Below, in pieces: positions 16,047 through 23,561 of a DNA stretch of 28,963 nucleotides. A program made the translations under genes and the position numbers. Within the stretch, counting starts at the first letter, position 1. The number at the start of each line of letters is the position of its first letter. Under the pieces are notes generated by a model. The model did not search any database. It was given only the letters and a program-made list of their open reading frames with translations, and was not told the origin of the DNA. This DNA comes from a virus. The stretch covers positions 1 through 28,963 of the IMG/VR virus record IMGVR_UViG_3300020410_000048; one strand, written 5' to 3'.

Positions 16047-18767
16047 GTGGCTTATAAAAAATATCAATGTAGATTTTATTCTGAAAATAAAGTAGGAGGT
16101 GCATATGTTTCACCTCCTTCTGCAGATCCTAATCAACAAAGATGGGAGATTGCAATATGGAAGGAAACAGGATCAGGTAGTACAACAGATTTTAAATGTA
16201 CATCATCTGCATTTACTTTAAAAATGGATGGTGGTGATGATAATTTAGCATCACCAATAAAAACTACTTCTGTAGAGTTTGATATGATTTTAGAAACTGC
16301 ATCACAAGAGCAGATAATAGATGATATATTATCAGTTGCAACAGGTAATGAGAATGAGTTTTGGGTGCAGATAGCAATGTATAATACTACTACTTCAACA
16401 TGGGAGAATTTTTGGAGAGGTGTATTATTAGGTGATCTTGTATCTGTGCAGGATGTAGGAATTAATAGAATTATAAAAGTACAGGCAACAGATGGATTAA
16501 CACAATTAAAATATAAATCTTTTGATCCTTCTACTTATGGTGGTTTAAAATCTTGTATGAATTTGATTAAAGTTTGTTTAGGTAGAATTAATCTAATTGC
16601 GGCAAGATATGGAGGATCTGATAGGATGATCGCACATACACCATTTTATTATTGTAAAGCAATGAGTGGAGGATTAACAGGTGCGGCAGGAGTTGATAGT
16701 GATACATGGAGGGAAAATGTTGATCATGATCCATTGTGTTTAACTAATGTAAATACAGAGATATTTAAATATGATGATGGTACATATTGGAGTTATTATG
16801 AGATATTAGAACAAGTTTTATCAACTTTTCAACTTCGTATAATGATGACAATGATAGAAGATGATGCAGGTAATGTAGGCCCTATGTGGTTATTACAATC
16901 TCCATTTGTATATCATGATTATAGTGGTAATCAAGATACAGATAATTTAACTTTTTTTCATCCTAATAATTTGACTACTGAAAGTGCATCAGGATATAAA
17001 GCAACATTTAGTACAAAATTAGTTAATCCTGCAGAGAGATTATCAGGAGGTATTACTACCTATTTACCTCCATTAAAACAATATAAAACAATCTACAATC
17101 ATAAAATAATGCAGAATTTAGCATTAGGCCCTTTATCATTTAATTCATCTGAATATAATGATGCTAACCTTACTGATTTAACTGATCATTATATTAATAC
17201 TCCTACTAATGGTTTTGTGTATAATTTATCTAAAAATACTGAAGATACACAGGTAGTAGGTTTTGGAGGTTTTGCAGAAAATTCTAATACTACTATACTA
17301 ATTACAGGGGATCTTGAATACTATCCTGAAGTATGGAGTGCATGGGATTGGTTTGAAGAAAATAATTTATCTGTAAGTTTTGGTAATATAACTAATGTTG
17401 CATGGTTAGATCAATTAGTATTTGCGAGGATGGGATTAATGGTAAGTAGTAGGAGTGAGTTTGTATCAGATGGTACACCTTCTATTTTTTATAATTACTA
17501 TTGGTATGGGATGAGTAGATTTGGTATTGCGGCAGGATCAATAGGGTGGATAGGCCCATCAGAAACATTAAATGGATCATATCCTGCATATTGGAATATC
17601 ACATATCCTGCAGTATGGTCTTATACTGAATTAGATACAGGTAATACTATATATCCATATGGTACTGATACAGGTGTAGATGGTGGATATTGGTATTCAA
17701 CTGCACAGACCATTGGTGCAATGGATCATTGGGCATGGTTTTCACCACATTTTCATCAAGTTGGAGGTAATAATGGTATGGTTTTAGGTAGTGCAGGTAG
17801 TGGTACAGATGAAAGTACATTTAATACAATGTGGAGTAATTATAATTATCAAAATGGATTGAGTACAGGCACAATATCATTTAGTAAAATTACACCATAT
17901 GTACCTATAGTAGGTGATCAATATGGTTTTGTGCCTACTACAGGAGGTTTTATACAAACATTGAGATTATATTATGCATTTAAAAGAGATAAATGGTACA
18001 CAGGAGATACTACAGGTGGTGGTAGTAACATTAGTAGATATTTATGTCATTTAGATTGGAGTAATCAGGGTGAAGCAGAGCATAAAAATAGAGGTATAGG
18101 TTTTGGATATAATCTAAATAATGTCAGGGTATATTTATTAGGTAATCAAAATGAGCAGGATGGATATTTTGATTATTCTATAGGATATTTTGAAAATAAT
18201 AATGGTACTCCATCAGAGAGTGAAACACAAGATCCTGAAATAATAATAGGTGATCAACCTGATTTTGATGCATCACAAAATTATGTGGGTACTGATAATA
18301 TAGGTGTATCACCTACTTATTTTGGTCAGTTTTGGATAACTAATACTAATGGTATTACATCACCTTCTTTACCTTATTATACAGGAGTAGATACAACAAG
18401 ATGGATATGCACATGGGAAAGTGATAATAGTGGTAATTGGTTAAAACTGCATGAAAAAAGATGTAAGATGCAGGTAACACATCATTATAAATTAAAAGAA
18501 AAATTAGATTTATTATTTAAAGATAGATCACCTACTACTTCATATGCAACTGATTTTAAAATGACTAAATATGGTTTTAGTGCAATATATAATTGGTATG
18601 GTGCAGGTAGTACAGAAAATACTACATGGATAGATAATTTATATATGGTATCAGGGGGTGAATTTATTGCAGGTACAATGGAATGGAAAGTACAATTAGT
18701 AGATTGTTTGACATTTTCACAAAGTAATATAGTAAACAATTCATATAGTAGTAATAATACTGATTAA
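16047..18767 (+). CDS. Large tail tip / baseplate protein
   Basis: A 906-residue protein directly after the tape measure region, where distal tail and tip proteins are encoded. The first 170 residues (CRFYSENKVGGAY, RWEIAIWKETGS, VEFDMILETASQEQIIDDILS, WENFWRGVLLGDLVSVQDVGINRIIKVQATDGL) look like a distal-tail/hub domain. The large remainder is rich in Trp, Tyr, Asn and Gly, in keeping with beta-rich tip or receptor-contact modules. The start is GTG at 16047 (Met-Ala-Tyr-Lys-Lys); no suitable ATG is near. No catalytic motif is seen. The exact structural role is inferred from position. Confidence 0.7.
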   Translation: MAYKKYQCRFYSENKVGGAYVSPPSADPNQQRWEIAIWKETGSGSTTDFKCTSSAFTLKMDGGDDNLASPIKTTSVEFDMILETASQEQIIDDILSVATGNENEFWVQIAMYNTTTSTWENFWRGVLLGDLVSVQDVGINRIIKVQATDGLTQLKYKSFDPSTYGGLKSCMNLIKVCLGRINLIAARYGGSDRMIAHTPFYYCKAMSGGLTGAAGVDSDTWRENVDHDPLCLTNVNTEIFKYDDGTYWSYYEILEQVLSTFQLRIMMTMIEDDAGNVGPMWLLQSPFVYHDYSGNQDTDNLTFFHPNNLTTESASGYKATFSTKLVNPAERLSGGITTYLPPLKQYKTIYNHKIMQNLALGPLSFNSSEYNDANLTDLTDHYINTPTNGFVYNLSKNTEDTQVVGFGGFAENSNTTILITGDLEYYPEVWSAWDWFEENNLSVSFGNITNVAWLDQLVFARMGLMVSSRSEFVSDGTPSIFYNYYWYGMSRFGIAAGSIGWIGPSETLNGSYPAYWNITYPAVWSYTELDTGNTIYPYGTDTGVDGGYWYSTAQTIGAMDHWAWFSPHFHQVGGNNGMVLGSAGSGTDESTFNTMWSNYNYQNGLSTGTISFSKITPYVPIVGDQYGFVPTTGGFIQTLRLYYAFKRDKWYTGDTTGGGSNISRYLCHLDWSNQGEAEHKNRGIGFGYNLNNVRVYLLGNQNEQDGYFDYSIGYFENNNGTPSESETQDPEIIIGDQPDFDASQNYVGTDNIGVSPTYFGQFWITNTNGITSPSLPYYTGVDTTRWICTWESDNSGNWLKLHEKRCKMQVTHHYKLKEKLDLLFKDRSPTTSYATDFKMTKYGFSAIYNWYGAGSTENTTWIDNLYMVSGGEFIAGTMEWKVQLVDCLTFSQSNIVNNSYSSNNTD

Positions 18768-19805
18768 ATGGCTATTAATAAAACAGGTAAAAGATTAAGA
18801 GTAAAAAATACTGCAAAAATACCTAAAACATTAGGGGGTAGTTTAAGTGGTAAATATAATGATATTAAGAATATCAAATATAGTAACAACTCATTAGATA
18901 GTAGAAGTGGTCAGGGTATAATAGGTGGTACAGGATCAGGAAGTATTACACATGCAACACCTAATACAGGACAATTAGATAGGGATAAAAATTTAAATTC
19001 ACCTTTTGGAGAATGGTTACGAAAAAATGCATTGACTACTACTTCTAATCCTATTAATGGTGGCGGTGGAACTTCATCTATTGCTATTAATCCCTCTACA
19101 TCAACATCACCTATAAGAGGTAAGGTATTATTTGAAGAACAATTATTTTATATATATGATAGATATACATTTAGATCTTATATATTTCAATGTTCTGCAG
19201 ATGTAGATGCAAGAGATACAACTATAAATATAGTATCTACTACATTAATAAAAAATAAACATAGATTTGCATCAGGATCATATATAATATCTGATTTTAA
19301 AAGATTACAAATTTATGCATTAAATAATGAATTTAGAGTAAATATAAAAAAGGGTAGAGAACTTTATTTAACAAGATTAAGTACTGCAAATCAGTGGGGA
19401 AACACAGGAGGATATTATGTGTTTAATGGTACAGGTACTAATCCATCATTTACATTTAATACTGCATTTAGAAGTGCATTTATTACAATATCAAATGTAT
19501 TTTTAAAATCAATAGATATTGCATATTATACTAATGTATCATGTGATTTAGAATTTAAAGTAGGTTTGATAGTTTGGAGAGATGGTTTTACTACTACTCC
19601 TACTTATGCAGATTTGCCTATGGTAACAGGAACAGATCCATCAGGAACACATACTGCAAATACTCAATATATAAAGACAATAGAATTAACAGGATTAGCA
19701 GGTATTGATACTCAATTAGGGGTAGGTTTATTTGTACGATCTGATACTTCTAATACATTAATATATGGTCATGGTAGTGCATCATTTAAAAATATACCTT
19801 CATGA
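18768..19805 (+). CDS. Tail fibre or tip-associated structural protein
   Basis: A 345-residue protein starting one base after the tail tip stop. Residues 1-110 are basic and rich in Gly, Ser, Asn and Thr with low-complexity linkers (GGTGSGS, NGGGGTSS), likely an extended shaft or anchor. Residues about 125-345 are beta-rich (KVLFEEQLFYIYDRYTF, SYIISDFKRLQIYAL, FRSAFITISNVFLKSIDIAYYTN, LEFKVGLIVWRDG). No family is recognised. Its place between tip gene and another small structural gene with 4-nt overlaps suggests a receptor-contacting part. Confidence 0.55.
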   Translation: MAINKTGKRLRVKNTAKIPKTLGGSLSGKYNDIKNIKYSNNSLDSRSGQGIIGGTGSGSITHATPNTGQLDRDKNLNSPFGEWLRKNALTTTSNPINGGGGTSSIAINPSTSTSPIRGKVLFEEQLFYIYDRYTFRSYIFQCSADVDARDTTINIVSTTLIKNKHRFASGSYIISDFKRLQIYALNNEFRVNIKKGRELYLTRLSTANQWGNTGGYYVFNGTGTNPSFTFNTAFRSAFITISNVFLKSIDIAYYTNVSCDLEFKVGLIVWRDGFTTTPTYADLPMVTGTDPSGTHTANTQYIKTIELTGLAGIDTQLGVGLFVRSDTSNTLIYGHGSASFKNIPS

Positions 19806-20221
19806 GTTTAGAAAATAAAAAATCAGGCATAATACATAGAAAATCAGGAGATGATTTAGATAAAATAAAAAAACATTATGATGATGGTTTAATGTTAGAT
19901 CCTACAGATAGGCCTGATGAATATCCACATCTATCTGCATTAATATATCAAATTGAATTAATGCAACAAGATATAGATGAATTAAGGAGATTTAGTGGTA
20001 CAGAAGAAAATAGAAGGATTACTAATAATACTGATTTAATAGATATAAATACTAAAAATATACCTCCTATTAAAGTATTATTACCTAATTCTAATGATGA
20101 AATAGGTTTACAAGTTGATCAGGGTTTAAGGGGTACTACTTTAATAATTAATTATACTAATGATAAAGGCACATTATACAAAGGGCAGATATTATTAGAA
20201 GAACAAATAAAAAAGAAATGA
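19802..20221 (+). CDS. Coiled-coil virion-associated protein, unknown
   Basis: A 139-residue protein whose ATG overlaps the previous stop (ATGA). Residues about 45-70 (ALIYQIELMQQDIDELRRFSG) form a short predicted coiled coil typical of trimerising fibre segments; the C-terminal half is beta-rich and ends with Lys residues. A fibre chaperone, trimerisation unit or fibre base is possible. No named family is recognised. It overlaps the next gene by 4 nt. Confidence 0.5.
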   Translation: MSLENKKSGIIHRKSGDDLDKIKKHYDDGLMLDPTDRPDEYPHLSALIYQIELMQQDIDELRRFSGTEENRRITNNTDLIDINTKNIPPIKVLLPNSNDEIGLQVDQGLRGTTLIINYTNDKGTLYKGQILLEEQIKKK

Positions 20222-21270
20222 GATCATTATTAGTATTTATATTCTTTGTATTGTTATTGTTTTTTTGCAGTAAATGTAATGCACAATTAGGTGTATTTAA
20301 ATACTCTACTATATATGCATCTGCAGGTTTTAATCAGGTATTAGATGAGGTAAATACATACACTATACAAAATGGAATACTAACAGAAACTACAAAAGAT
20401 AATAAATATAATTATAGATATGCATTAGGTATTAGGAGATTAGCAAGATTATCTATGGAAAATAGAAAATCATATAAAGATGGTACTGAAACTGAATTAG
20501 GTAAATTTAGATCTGCATTGATGAATGGTTTAGAGTATTTAGTATCATATGAAAATGTAAGGGATAGAGGTATTAATTATATTAATCAGGATTATTTTAT
20601 AAGATACATATCTAAAAATTATATTATAAAATTACAAAGTACTAATTTACAGGGCATTGATTTAAAATATAGAGAGTTAGATTTAAGATTAAAAAAAGAT
20701 GTTAAAGATTTTCAATTATCATTAGGCATCTCATATAGATTACATCCTGCATACTCTATTAATCCATTTAGTATTTTTAGTGGTAGTGATTATATAGAAG
20801 TTGCAAATAATTTAGGATATAATAGTGAGTATTATTATTTAGATATGAATAGTAACGGATATTTAGATAGATTTGAGATTTCTGATTATTATTGGTTTAA
20901 TTCTGATGGTGATACTATTGCTAATAGTAATACAGAATTTATGCAGTATCATTATTCAGATATAGTAAATACATATAATAATAATGAAATAAATAAATTA
21001 GGAATACAACATACTATATCATCAGTTATTGGAATTAATTATTATAAGCATAATAATAATAATCATTATTTATTGTGGACTAATATATTACCATATCATT
21101 ATAAACTTACTAAACATGGTTATAATGGATCTGTAGATTATGAAATTGGTGCAATAATACAAAGACCTATTAATAAATTTTTATCTGTATTTACAGAAGG
21201 GGTATATCTAAAGTATTTAGATAGAAGAAATTATAATATAAAAATAGGACTAAACATATTATTAAAATGA
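20218..21270 (+). CDS. Secreted putative outer-membrane beta-barrel protein with EF-hand loop
   Basis: A 350-residue protein with a clear signal peptide: MRS, a hydrophobic run LLVFIFFVLLLFF, then SKCNA-Q, the Bacteroidota signal peptidase I pattern. The mature part shows alternating short strands with aromatic residues (FKYSTIYASAGFNQV, YRYALGIRRLARL, YFIRYISKNYIIKLQS, FQLSLGISYRL) and ends in YNIKIGLNILLK, resembling an outer-membrane barrel. Residues 209-220, DMNSNGYLDRFE, form a canonical EF-hand calcium loop (ligands at 1, 3, 5, 9 and 12, Gly at 6). It sits between tail and endolysin genes. It could alter the host surface, block superinfection or help open the outer membrane. Barrel call is inference. 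Confidence 0.6.
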   Translation: MRSLLVFIFFVLLLFFCSKCNAQLGVFKYSTIYASAGFNQVLDEVNTYTIQNGILTETTKDNKYNYRYALGIRRLARLSMENRKSYKDGTETELGKFRSALMNGLEYLVSYENVRDRGINYINQDYFIRYISKNYIIKLQSTNLQGIDLKYRELDLRLKKDVKDFQLSLGISYRLHPAYSINPFSIFSGSDYIEVANNLGYNSEYYYLDMNSNGYLDRFEISDYYWFNSDGDTIANSNTEFMQYHYSDIVNTYNNNEINKLGIQHTISSVIGINYYKHNNNNHYLLWTNILPYHYKLTKHGYNGSVDYEIGAIIQRPINKFLSVFTEGVYLKYLDRRNYNIKIGLNILLK

Positions 21271-21542
21271 AAACATTGAATGAAAACACATTGATTAATT
21301 TAGATCTTAAAACATTATTTATAATTGTAGGTTTTGTAGTATCAATGGTGAGTATGTATGCTAAATTACAGGCGGATATAGAGGATGCAAAATTATTACC
21401 TAAACCTACATTATCTGCAACAGAATGGGAAATAAAAGATGAATTAATAAGGACTACTATTATGCAAAATGCAGTAGGTATTGATGAAATTAAAGATAAA
21501 TTAAATACCATTGAAAATAGATTATATGAAATCAATAAATAA
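21267..21542 (+). CDS. Membrane-anchored coiled-coil protein, spanin- or holin-like
   Basis: A 91-residue protein. A short polar N-terminus is followed by one membrane helix at about residues 15-33 (KTLFIIVGFVVSMVSMYAK), then a charged region with heptad-like spacing (AKLQADIEDAKLL; VGIDEIKDKLNTIENRLYEIN). That is the layout of inner-membrane spanins and of some holins. Its stop region overlaps the start of a secreted periplasmic protein by 17 nt, recalling overlapping spanin pairs, and the M15 endolysin follows. Function is inferred from topology and neighbours. Confidence 0.5.
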   Translation: MKTLNENTLINLDLKTLFIIVGFVVSMVSMYAKLQADIEDAKLLPKPTLSATEWEIKDELIRTTIMQNAVGIDEIKDKLNTIENRLYEINK

Positions 21543-21906
21543 AAAAGATATATCTAATTATATTTATGTCTTAATAATGATATTAGTATTTCTATTATCA
21601 TATAAAGTTAATGCACAAAGTTTTTTAAAAAATGATATATCTGTAGTAGAATTTAATACATCATGGAATGAAGATAATCATTTAAAAAATTTAGATAAGT
21701 TAAATAACTGCAAATACTATACCATAATACTATGTGATCACATAGAATACATGGATAAATATAATATAAAACAACCTACTATAATAGTATTTAATAATGG
21801 TAATGAAATTATAAGATTTAAAAGTACCATTATGTTAGATTTTGACATAACATACAAAGATTTACAAAAAGAGGTAGATGTATTATTGTTAAATAAATTT
21901 AATTAA
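21526..21906 (+). CDS. Secreted thioredoxin-fold protein lacking the CxxC active site
   Basis: A 126-residue protein from ATG 21526; an upstream in-frame ATG at 21511 would only add five residues and deepen the overlap. A signal peptide (YIYVLIMILVFLLSYKVNA-Q) predicts periplasmic export. The mature part follows the thioredoxin plan: VVEFNTSWNEDNHL where active members have a W-C-x-x-C site, and PTIIVFNNGNEIIRF with the conserved cis-Pro at residue 84. Neither active-site Cys is present (SWNEDN around Trp47), so it cannot be a disulfide reductase. Two other Cys (62 and 70) might pair. It lies between a membrane coiled-coil protein and the endolysin, so a lysis or periplasmic binding role is likely. 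Confidence 0.65.
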   Translation: MKSINKKDISNYIYVLIMILVFLLSYKVNAQSFLKNDISVVEFNTSWNEDNHLKNLDKLNNCKYYTIILCDHIEYMDKYNIKQPTIIVFNNGNEIIRFKSTIMLDFDITYKDLQKEVDVLLLNKFN

Positions 21907-21908
21907 AA

Positions 21909-22409
21909 ATGTTATTATCAAAAAATTTTAGTTTAAAAGAATTTTTAAAATCAAATGTTGCAAAAAGAAAAGGTATTGTATTAGATCCTCCAAAAGATCA
22001 TATATATAATATGCAGAAACTTTGCATGAAATTATTACAACCTGTTAGAGATGAATTAGGTAGGCCTATTAAAATAAATTCAGGATGGAGATCTATTGCA
22101 TTAAATAAAGCATTAGGAGGTGCATACAAAATAAAAGATGGTAAATATATTGCAACTTCACAACATTGTAAAGGACAGGCGGCAGATCTACATTATGTAG
22201 ATGGTAAAGGTAAAGCAAATAATAAATTATTATTTGATACTATTTTAGATATGGGATTAGAGTTTGATCAGATGATAAATGAATTTGATTATGCATGGAT
22301 ACATATTTCATTTAATGAAGGTAATAATAGATGTAAATTATTAGAAGCATATAAAGGAGAAAATGGTAGAACTGCATATAGAAAATATAAAAAAATAAAA
22401 TCATTATGA
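21909..22409 (+). CDS. Endolysin, peptidase M15A (D,D-/L,D-endopeptidase type)
   Basis: A 166-residue peptidoglycan peptidase that cuts cross-links at the end of infection. The N-terminus LSKNFSLKEFLKSNVA and LLQPVRDELGRPIKINSGWRS are typical of Peptidase_M15_3. The zinc site reads SQHCKGQAAD with ligands His86 and Asp93, plus WIHIS with His132. No signal peptide is present, so a holin is needed; the next gene encodes a candidate. It overlaps that gene by 4 nt. Two secreted or membrane proteins precede it. Confidence 0.92.
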   Translation: MLLSKNFSLKEFLKSNVAKRKGIVLDPPKDHIYNMQKLCMKLLQPVRDELGRPIKINSGWRSIALNKALGGAYKIKDGKYIATSQHCKGQAADLHYVDGKGKANNKLLFDTILDMGLEFDQMINEFDYAWIHISFNEGNNRCKLLEAYKGENGRTAYRKYKKIKSL

Positions 22410-22810
22410 GTATTATAGATAAATTATTTGGTGGTTTAAAATTAGATCTAAACAAAGCAATAGATGATCTTACTACTACTAAAGAAGAAAAAAGATCATT
22501 AAAAATACAAATGGATAAAGCATTGAGAAATCATAAAAAATCAATGTATGAATTAGAAGTAGAGGACAGAAAATCTGCAAGAGATATGTATAAAGATGAT
22601 AGTGTAATTCAAAAAATTTTAGCAACTATATTTACATTAGCATACTTTACATTATCATTTGTATTAGCAAGATATTTTTTATTAAAAGATATAAATTTAG
22701 GTGAATTTGAAATAAGTTTTATATCTACTTTATTTGGTGCAATGTCGGCAAAAATTAATACTATTATTGATTTTTACTATGGTACAGGATCTAATAAAGA
22801 TAATAAATAA
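22406..22810 (+). CDS. Holin-like membrane protein
   Basis: A 134-residue protein: an amphipathic start MSIIDKLFGGLKLDL, a charged helix KAIDDLTTTKEEKRSLKIQMDKALRNHKKSMYELEVEDRKSARDMYKDDSVIQK, then two hydrophobic helices (about 68-90, ILATIFTLAYFTLSFVLARYFLL, and about 103-123). The order TTTKEEK, then a soluble helix, then paired membrane segments and a FYYGTGS end resembles the 3TM holin family linked to gene-transfer-agent holins. It overlaps the endolysin gene and would release it across the inner membrane. Confidence 0.72.
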   Translation: MSIIDKLFGGLKLDLNKAIDDLTTTKEEKRSLKIQMDKALRNHKKSMYELEVEDRKSARDMYKDDSVIQKILATIFTLAYFTLSFVLARYFLLKDINLGEFEISFISTLFGAMSAKINTIIDFYYGTGSNKDNK

Positions 22811-22811
22811 A

Positions 22812-23561
22812 ATGACATATAGACCAAGATTAAATAAATATGTGTATGAGTTTATAAACCATCACAAACGATCTAATGTAGTAGGTATTATTAGTGATAC
22901 CCATTACCCATTTTCTCATAAAGATCATTTAAATTTTCTTTATGAAACTTTTAATAAATTTCAAGTAAATAGAATTGTACACATTGGTGATCTTGTTGAT
23001 GGTGCGGCATGGAATATGTGGGAAACTAACCCAGAACAACCATCAGGATCTAAAGAGGCAGAATTAGCACAAAAGGATATAGATAAATTATTTAAAACAT
23101 TCCCTAATGGAGATTTAACTATGGGTAATCATGATCAATTAATCAATAGGAGAATGTTAAAACATGCAATACCCAAAAAGTTTTATAGAACATTTGAGGA
23201 TAGTTGGAATTTTCCTAAAGGATGGAAAACACATGACTATTTAGAAATAGATAATGTATTATATATACATGGTACAGGTAAAAGTGGTCAAAATGCAACT
23301 ATTAATTTTATGACAGATTACAGGCAATCAGTAGTATCAGGTCATACTCATAGTAGTGGTGGAATAAATTATAGAGCATCATATAAAGATTTGACATTTG
23401 CATTAAATGTAGGATGCCTTATATCTACTAATGATATTGCATTTAATTATGGTAAGCATTTCAGTAAAAAACCTACATTAGGATGTGGGATAGTGGTAGA
23501 AGGTAAATATGGTTTTTTTATACCTATGAATTTAGGCAGTAAAATATCATATAAACAATGA
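22812..23561 (+). CDS. Calcineurin-like metallophosphoesterase
   Basis: A 249-residue enzyme with the complete two-metal phosphoesterase signature: SDTH (Asp29, His31), GDLVD (Asp60, Asp63), GNHD (Asn106, His107, Asp108), YIHG (His153) and SGHTH (His178, His180). Substrate is unknown; relatives act on nucleotides, nucleic acids or phosphoproteins. I chose ATG 22812, one base after the holin stop. A start at 22734 is in frame but lies inside the holin gene and would add a spurious 26-residue segment. No signal peptide, so cytoplasmic. Confidence 0.88.
   Translation: MTYRPRLNKYVYEFINHHKRSNVVGIISDTHYPFSHKDHLNFLYETFNKFQVNRIVHIGDLVDGAAWNMWETNPEQPSGSKEAELAQKDIDKLFKTFPNGDLTMGNHDQLINRRMLKHAIPKKFYRTFEDSWNFPKGWKTHDYLEIDNVLYIHGTGKSGQNATINFMTDYRQSVVSGHTHSSGGINYRASYKDLTFALNVGCLISTNDIAFNYGKHFSKKPTLGCGIVVEGKYGFFIPMNLGSKISYKQ

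Follow-up and report, generated by a model that had tools for sequence, protein, structure and literature searches.

A predicted outer-membrane barrel encoded beside phage lysis genes, and its two conserved envelope partners

The barrel protein

The window, i.e., the whole 28,963-nucleotide stretch of DNA analysed here (IMG/VR record IMGVR_UViG_3300020410_000048), contains an open reading frame that runs from an ATG at 20218 to a stop codon at 21268–21270. A preliminary description, made from the letters alone, had named exactly this interval (20218–21270) as a secreted beta-barrel candidate lying directly before the endolysin genes. The interval is correct; the position needs amending, as two genes (21267–21542 and 21526–21906) intervene, and there is a single M15 endolysin gene (21909–22409), followed by a holin-like gene. 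The features of the locus are as follows.

20218–21270, plus strand: phage outer-membrane beta-barrel protein of 350 aa with 12 strands, as predicted from fold and family
20218–20283, plus strand: predicted signal peptide of the barrel protein (residues 1–22), signal peptidase I type, cleavage NA↓Q, no lipobox
20746–21006, plus strand: long loop of about 85 residues (177–263) between barrel strands 7 and 8, in both models
20842–20877, plus strand: EF-hand-type calcium loop DMNSNGYLDRFE (residues 209–220) at a beta-hairpin tip, from pattern and models
21267–21542, plus strand: cassette member, predicted inner-membrane-anchored protein of 91 aa with an N-terminal transmembrane (TM) segment and a coiled-coil-like C-terminal tail (the coil protein)
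21526–21906, plus strand: cassette member, secreted thioredoxin-fold protein of 126 aa without CxxC
21909–22409, plus strand: M15 peptidase endolysin (PF08291, phrog_894)
22406–22810, plus strand: probable holin of 134 aa with a hydrophobic C-terminal half, from a weak match and its occupying the place of the 3TM holin in relatives

The first 22 residues of the barrel protein are hydrophobic and end in NA↓Q. The aligned relatives (11 of 11) are invariant from the cleavage-site glutamine on and variable upstream, and the same boundary between variable and conserved sequence falls at this glutamine in alignments of 4, 7 and 11 homologues. In the wider family, a signal-like N-terminus is present in 83 of 95 aligned members, 78 of which have an AxA↓Q-type site. 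The A↓Q junction, kept in all 11 relatives, agrees with the signal peptide proposed in the preliminary description, and export of the protein with a signal peptidase I-type signal peptide is well supported by prediction.

Two AlphaFold2 models, of the full-length protein with 7 sequences (pLDDT 62, pTM 0.58) and of the mature protein with 11 sequences (pLDDT 71, pTM 0.65), are of moderate confidence, and both contain 12 long antiparallel transmembrane strands. Outer-membrane barrels are the top matches of both models among PDB structures: EstA (Z 16.1), Tsx (15.6), KdgM (15.5) and NalP (15.3) for the first, and Tsx (15.2) and EstA (13.6) for the second. In a viral structure library, one uncharacterised viral protein shares 39% identity with the barrel, and many phage proteins labelled as outer-membrane barrels are among the matches. 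The strand pattern read from the sequence thus reappears as 12 strands in two models that match known outer-membrane barrels; the predicted structure is such a barrel and not a globular virion protein, and the suggested insertion into the outer membrane is well supported by prediction. On these models, the window protein is very probably an outer-membrane barrel. Since both ends of a barrel are periplasmic by rule, the loop of residues 177–263 would be extracellular.

The architecture is like that of other 12-stranded barrels (Tsx, KdgM/NanC, autotransporter translocators and the outer membrane phospholipase OMPLA; Z about 10–16), to which, however, the window barrel has 4–15% identity, with no sequence-family match and no known active site identified. 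For OMPLA, the likeness is one of fold alone (Z about 11–12), with no Pfam match of the window barrel up to E 10. That Tsx, KdgM, NanC and FapF channels are among the nearest folds might suggest a porin-like or transport barrel, altering the envelope during infection by nutrient uptake or by export of a partner protein. But barrel fold likeness says nothing of function, the window barrel has no sequence match to a channel family, and the link to lysis genes described below would be left unexplained; we regard such a role as quite unlikely.

Within the long loop, residues 209–220 form a 12-residue segment with acidic or amide ligands at positions 1, 3, 5, 9 and 12, as in an EF-hand loop. When the mature protein is shuffled, the PROSITE-type EF pattern arises in 0.35% of the shuffles and the strict form D.[DN].[DN]G.hD..E in 3e-5 of them. 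The five usual side-chain ligand positions (Asp209, Asn211, Asn213, Asp217 and Glu220) are invariant in 11 of 11 homologues while the non-ligand positions 2, 4, 7 and 11 vary, which argues for a real metal site. In both models the segment lies between two short beta strands, with low to moderate local confidence, flanking helices are absent, and Pfam returned no EF-hand family match for the protein up to E 10. What remains of the "canonical EF-hand" first described is therefore the loop pattern, whereas the helix-loop-helix does not hold; we rejected a canonical EF-hand protein because only the loop fits, in a hairpin context and in a limited clade. Other EF-hand-type loops outside helix-loop-helix folds share DxNxNGxhDxxE with the window loop, which differs from them in its position at the tip of a membrane-barrel beta-hairpin and in being clade-specific.

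Among the 95 aligned family members, the calcium pattern is confined to the window clade, where it has 8 strict matches, apart from a similar loop in one distant member, L055 (DFDLDGVVDNFD); most of the others have a short turn, e.g., TDENGN..YDWYW, at the tip of this hairpin. Calcium binding would be a local addition in the family, as far as the alignment tells. The calcium concentration of seawater is about 10 mM, so that a site facing outside, as the predicted topology has it, would be kept filled. A calcium-sensitive regulator of lysis could be argued from the invariant ligands of the 11 close relatives, but the loop is missing from most of the family though its gene neighbours are kept, the exposed hairpin would be saturated, and the models have no helix-loop-helix. 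The calcium control suggested initially is accordingly unsupported as a general property, and a regulator of this kind is very improbable; the loop is probably a structural, clade-specific ornament of an exposed region.

The barrel family and its two partner genes

Queries with the window protein, and with alignments of it, returned ten close relatives in IMG/VR, and scans with the middle part of the window-clade barrel, with its C-terminal part and with the thioredoxin-fold protein returned the same small clade alone. A profile search of endolysin-seeded contigs detected distant barrels in four loci (L053, L055, L067 and L070; E 1e-38 to 1e-57) and a barrel fragment in L063, and a scan with the distant members gave at least 546 confirmed barrel relatives in IMG/VR, 80 loci of which were kept and read closely. 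By these sequence relationships, the window protein lies at the periphery of a very large family of phage proteins. With at least 546 members, and with the many barrels matched in the viral structure library, such a protein can hardly be called uncommon for a phage, as had been supposed.

The family has no Pfam or PHROG entry, and nothing useful was found for it in Pfam, PHROGs, NCBIfam or the PDB sequences. A tblastn search of INPHARED with window-clade and distant barrels gave no relative among the phages tested, and none of the annotated collections searched describes the barrel-bearing phages. A scan of genome contigs by barrel patterns found none, but barrels were present in endolysin-seeded loci, so that an empty pattern scan does not prove absence. 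No barrel turned up when 46 genomes of one order and 395 of one phylum were searched by profile, an empty answer that is not evidence of absence. Three of the contigs (L053, L063 and L070) are binned in metagenome-assembled genomes named Maricaulis, Woesearchaeota and Alphaproteobacteria; given their links to Flavobacteriia, they are probably misbinned phages.

Profiles of the two genes located 3' of the window barrel were searched in the 80 barrel-seeded loci. The coil partner and the thioredoxin-fold partner are each present in 78 of them, on the strand of the barrel, and the trio is incomplete in three loci (L163, L187 and L192), all at contig ends. In 90 of 90 loci the coil gene comes before the thioredoxin-fold gene, and in 89 the two are adjacent; the barrel is on either side of the pair, depending on the locus. 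A distant relative of the 126-aa protein, in L070, scores above the Pfam Thioredoxin threshold. Reciprocal seeding from the thioredoxin-fold gene recovered the barrel in 69 of 80 loci, and 9 of the other 11 have contig ends close by; in two loci the pair is truly without a barrel (L218:3669-4420 and L220:3662-4375), and in L220 no recognised endolysin lies near the pair. The three genes form a conserved envelope cassette, with the barrel as its putative outer-membrane component; we found no description of such a barrel/coil/thioredoxin cassette in the literature.

Endolysin, holin and phage context

An endolysin gene lies beside the trio in 74 of the 80 barrel loci, the outcome of a search for homologues next to endolysins that the preliminary description had proposed. 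The enzyme is of the M15 type in 62 loci, in two of which (L195 and L201) its gene overlaps the upstream end of the barrel gene, and in 12 further loci M15 is replaced by Amidase_2, directly after the barrel and with a 3TM holin next. Contig ends account for five of the other six, which leaves L143 alone without a recognised endolysin in reach. Because the trio is kept where M15 is swapped for the unrelated Amidase_2, it follows the lysis genes across endolysin types. It is likewise kept across phages with differing packaging and structural genes: the window has an HK97-type portal and a tape measure, the amidase group has a phrog_6681 terminase, and L067 and L070 have other, unassigned large proteins. 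Barrel distances and M15 distances are strongly correlated (r 0.91), and the co-inheritance of the two genes partly reflects shared phage ancestry. Of the calcium-sensitive outer-membrane lysis protein proposed earlier, the lysis role has gained strong genomic support from the retention of the trio when the endolysin type changes, while the calcium sensitivity has not been borne out.

A relative of the amidase group, MW202828 (TerL 74%), has no trio, and a different TM protein lies beside its M15 endolysin. The trio-less deposited relatives MW202828, Cellulophaga phi38:1 and Tenacibaculum Gundel_1 all have another, uncharacterised protein of about 200 aa next to the endolysin (L209:15470-16093, L211:21585-22184 and L213:32342-32989), with an N-terminal TM segment and, as judged by eye, a beta-strand-like C-terminal stretch; that of phi38:1 is phrog_25644. 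This pattern would fit an exchange in which one means of outer-membrane lysis gave way to another.

The place of the barrel gene directly after the tail-region genes of the window might instead indicate a structural protein of the virion tail. The conserved signal peptide, with an AxA↓Q-type site in most members, the outer-membrane barrel fold, and the identity of the fixed neighbours across phage groups, which are lysis genes and two envelope genes, make this reading scarcely credible. The close relatives share this location, and lambda Lom, an outer-membrane barrel, is encoded between tail genes (PMC12309495). In the manner of Lom or of a phage porin, a barrel inserted late would mask or alter the receptor; released virions would then escape capture by cell debris, and other phages would be excluded. 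Known phage outer-membrane barrels exist, and the long loop differs between clades; however, surface modification or superinfection exclusion would explain neither the fixed inner-membrane coil and periplasmic thioredoxin-fold partners nor the tie to two unrelated endolysin types, and long-term protection is disfavoured by the late position and by the lack of an integrase among the window proteins scanned. Like the Lom and PHROG 557 barrels, the window barrel is phage-encoded, carries a signal peptide and lies near tail genes, but it differs from them in its 12 strands, its 85-residue loop, its fixed partners and endolysin, and its lack of a PHROG match (none at E up to 1, and none convincing for its relatives). 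A Lom-like role is unlikely on balance, and Lom itself, beside tail genes and with no known lysis role (PMC12309495), is a caution for a lysis reading of the barrel.

The terminase of the amidase group has 87 INPHARED matches, all but one from phages of Flavobacterium, Cellulophaga, Tenacibaculum and Maribacter. Of the window's gene starts, 41 were checked and 39 are without a Shine-Dalgarno match; such starts and signal peptides ending in A↓Q are both usual in Bacteroidota. From the terminase relatives, the gene starts and the signal peptides together, the hosts are probably Flavobacteriia, and that of the window phage a marine flavobacterium. The window's own terminase was rejected as a host indicator, its matches being spread over many unrelated phages, and no evidence on the host comes from the Bacteroidota promoter motif TTTG-N17-21-TANNTTTG, of which the window has no copy.

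Comparison with spanins and a proposed role

Taking the genomic association and the predicted fold as the established part, we infer that the barrel is located in the outer membrane, that the three proteins are in contact, and that they are expressed late and take part in lysis. We give a probability of about one half to the barrel being a member of a lysis cassette that acts at the outer membrane, within a late lysis module with endolysin and holin. After the holin has opened the inner membrane and the endolysin has cut the wall, the outer membrane would be the remaining barrier. The trio would supply a protein to every compartment: the coil held by its anchor in the inner membrane, the thioredoxin-fold protein free in the periplasmic space, and the barrel in the outer membrane. 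Joined to one another, the three would destabilise the outer membrane or open it. In its simplest form, the model would be a spanin-like bridge with the barrel as its outer anchor. On the other side, the coil protein is short for a bridge across the periplasm (about 90–105 aa), and the barrel-less pair in L218 and L220 speaks against a lysis cassette.

Like the two-component spanins of the lambda Rz/Rz1 type, the cassette is envelope-spanning and lies beside endolysin and holin genes, and its inner-membrane protein resembles an i-spanin in having an N-terminal TM segment and a coiled-coil-like tail; an N-in topology is weakly favoured, from a weak charge bias. Unlike in Rz/Rz1, the outer-membrane member is a beta-barrel instead of a lipoprotein, and nearly every locus has, in addition, a third protein, which is periplasmic and of thioredoxin fold. 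The barrel has no lipobox, neither the window nor the examined stretches of its 10 close relatives yielded a plausible lipobox ORF, and in the window no ORF was found for a unimolecular spanin (a lipoprotein with a C-terminal TM segment), the only spanin type that a 2025 survey reports for Bacteroidetes phages (PMC12596118). Because the o-spanin lipoprotein is absent, the cassette is not a spanin by definition; by analogy, it may be spanin-like in role.

Elsewhere in the family, a lipoprotein ORF lies near the trio in 35 of 80 loci. Most of these lipoproteins belong to one family (L123, L126, L128 and others), are about 120–157 aa long and tyrosine-rich, are mostly encoded just after the M15 endolysin, and have the core ITHVLAxTExGDTLxIPIxxIKPNVxYN. 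The trio-linked lipoprotein is a candidate o-spanin or other lysis protein and could be the true spanin there, and its presence implies that the barrel may work jointly with a lipoprotein or that the two may serve separate steps. That a lipoprotein-free system of barrel, thioredoxin-fold linker and coiled coil stands in for spanins across a large group of marine phages of Flavobacteriia is a tentative proposal, against which these 35 loci count and which we hold to be possible rather than probable.

For the breakage of the outer membrane by Gram-negative phages, the barrel family offers a concrete candidate that is very widespread and has defined partner genes. In its treatment of spanin-less phages, the survey of Kongari et al. 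(PMC6139136) names the possibility of an outer-membrane protein acting as o-spanin, counts about 13% of 677 phages as without a recognised spanin, and includes among them Bacteroides phage B124-14 and Croceibacter phages P2559S and P2559Y. The barrel family makes this idea directly testable.

The genes around the cassette vary within the window clade. Some members have an extra gene of 100–139 aa before the barrel (window 19802-20221; L009:5696-6001; L012:5696-5998), which is missing in L001–L003. Further upstream in the window, two tail-region proteins of 906 aa (16047-18767) and 345 aa (18768-19805) have no PHROG match, the larger also having no INPHARED match; they are probable novel tail-tip or receptor-binding proteins. 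The holin-like proteins (window 22406-22810; L009:8195-8575; L010:8141-8515) have an N-terminal part common within the clade, and the membrane half differs in L009 and L010, with 24% identity overall, as if a domain had been swapped. After the holin, a metallophosphoesterase-like gene (window 22812-23561; L010:8516-9238; L012:8563-9285; L013:8546-9268) exists in this small clade as two clearly distinct variants that take the same position.
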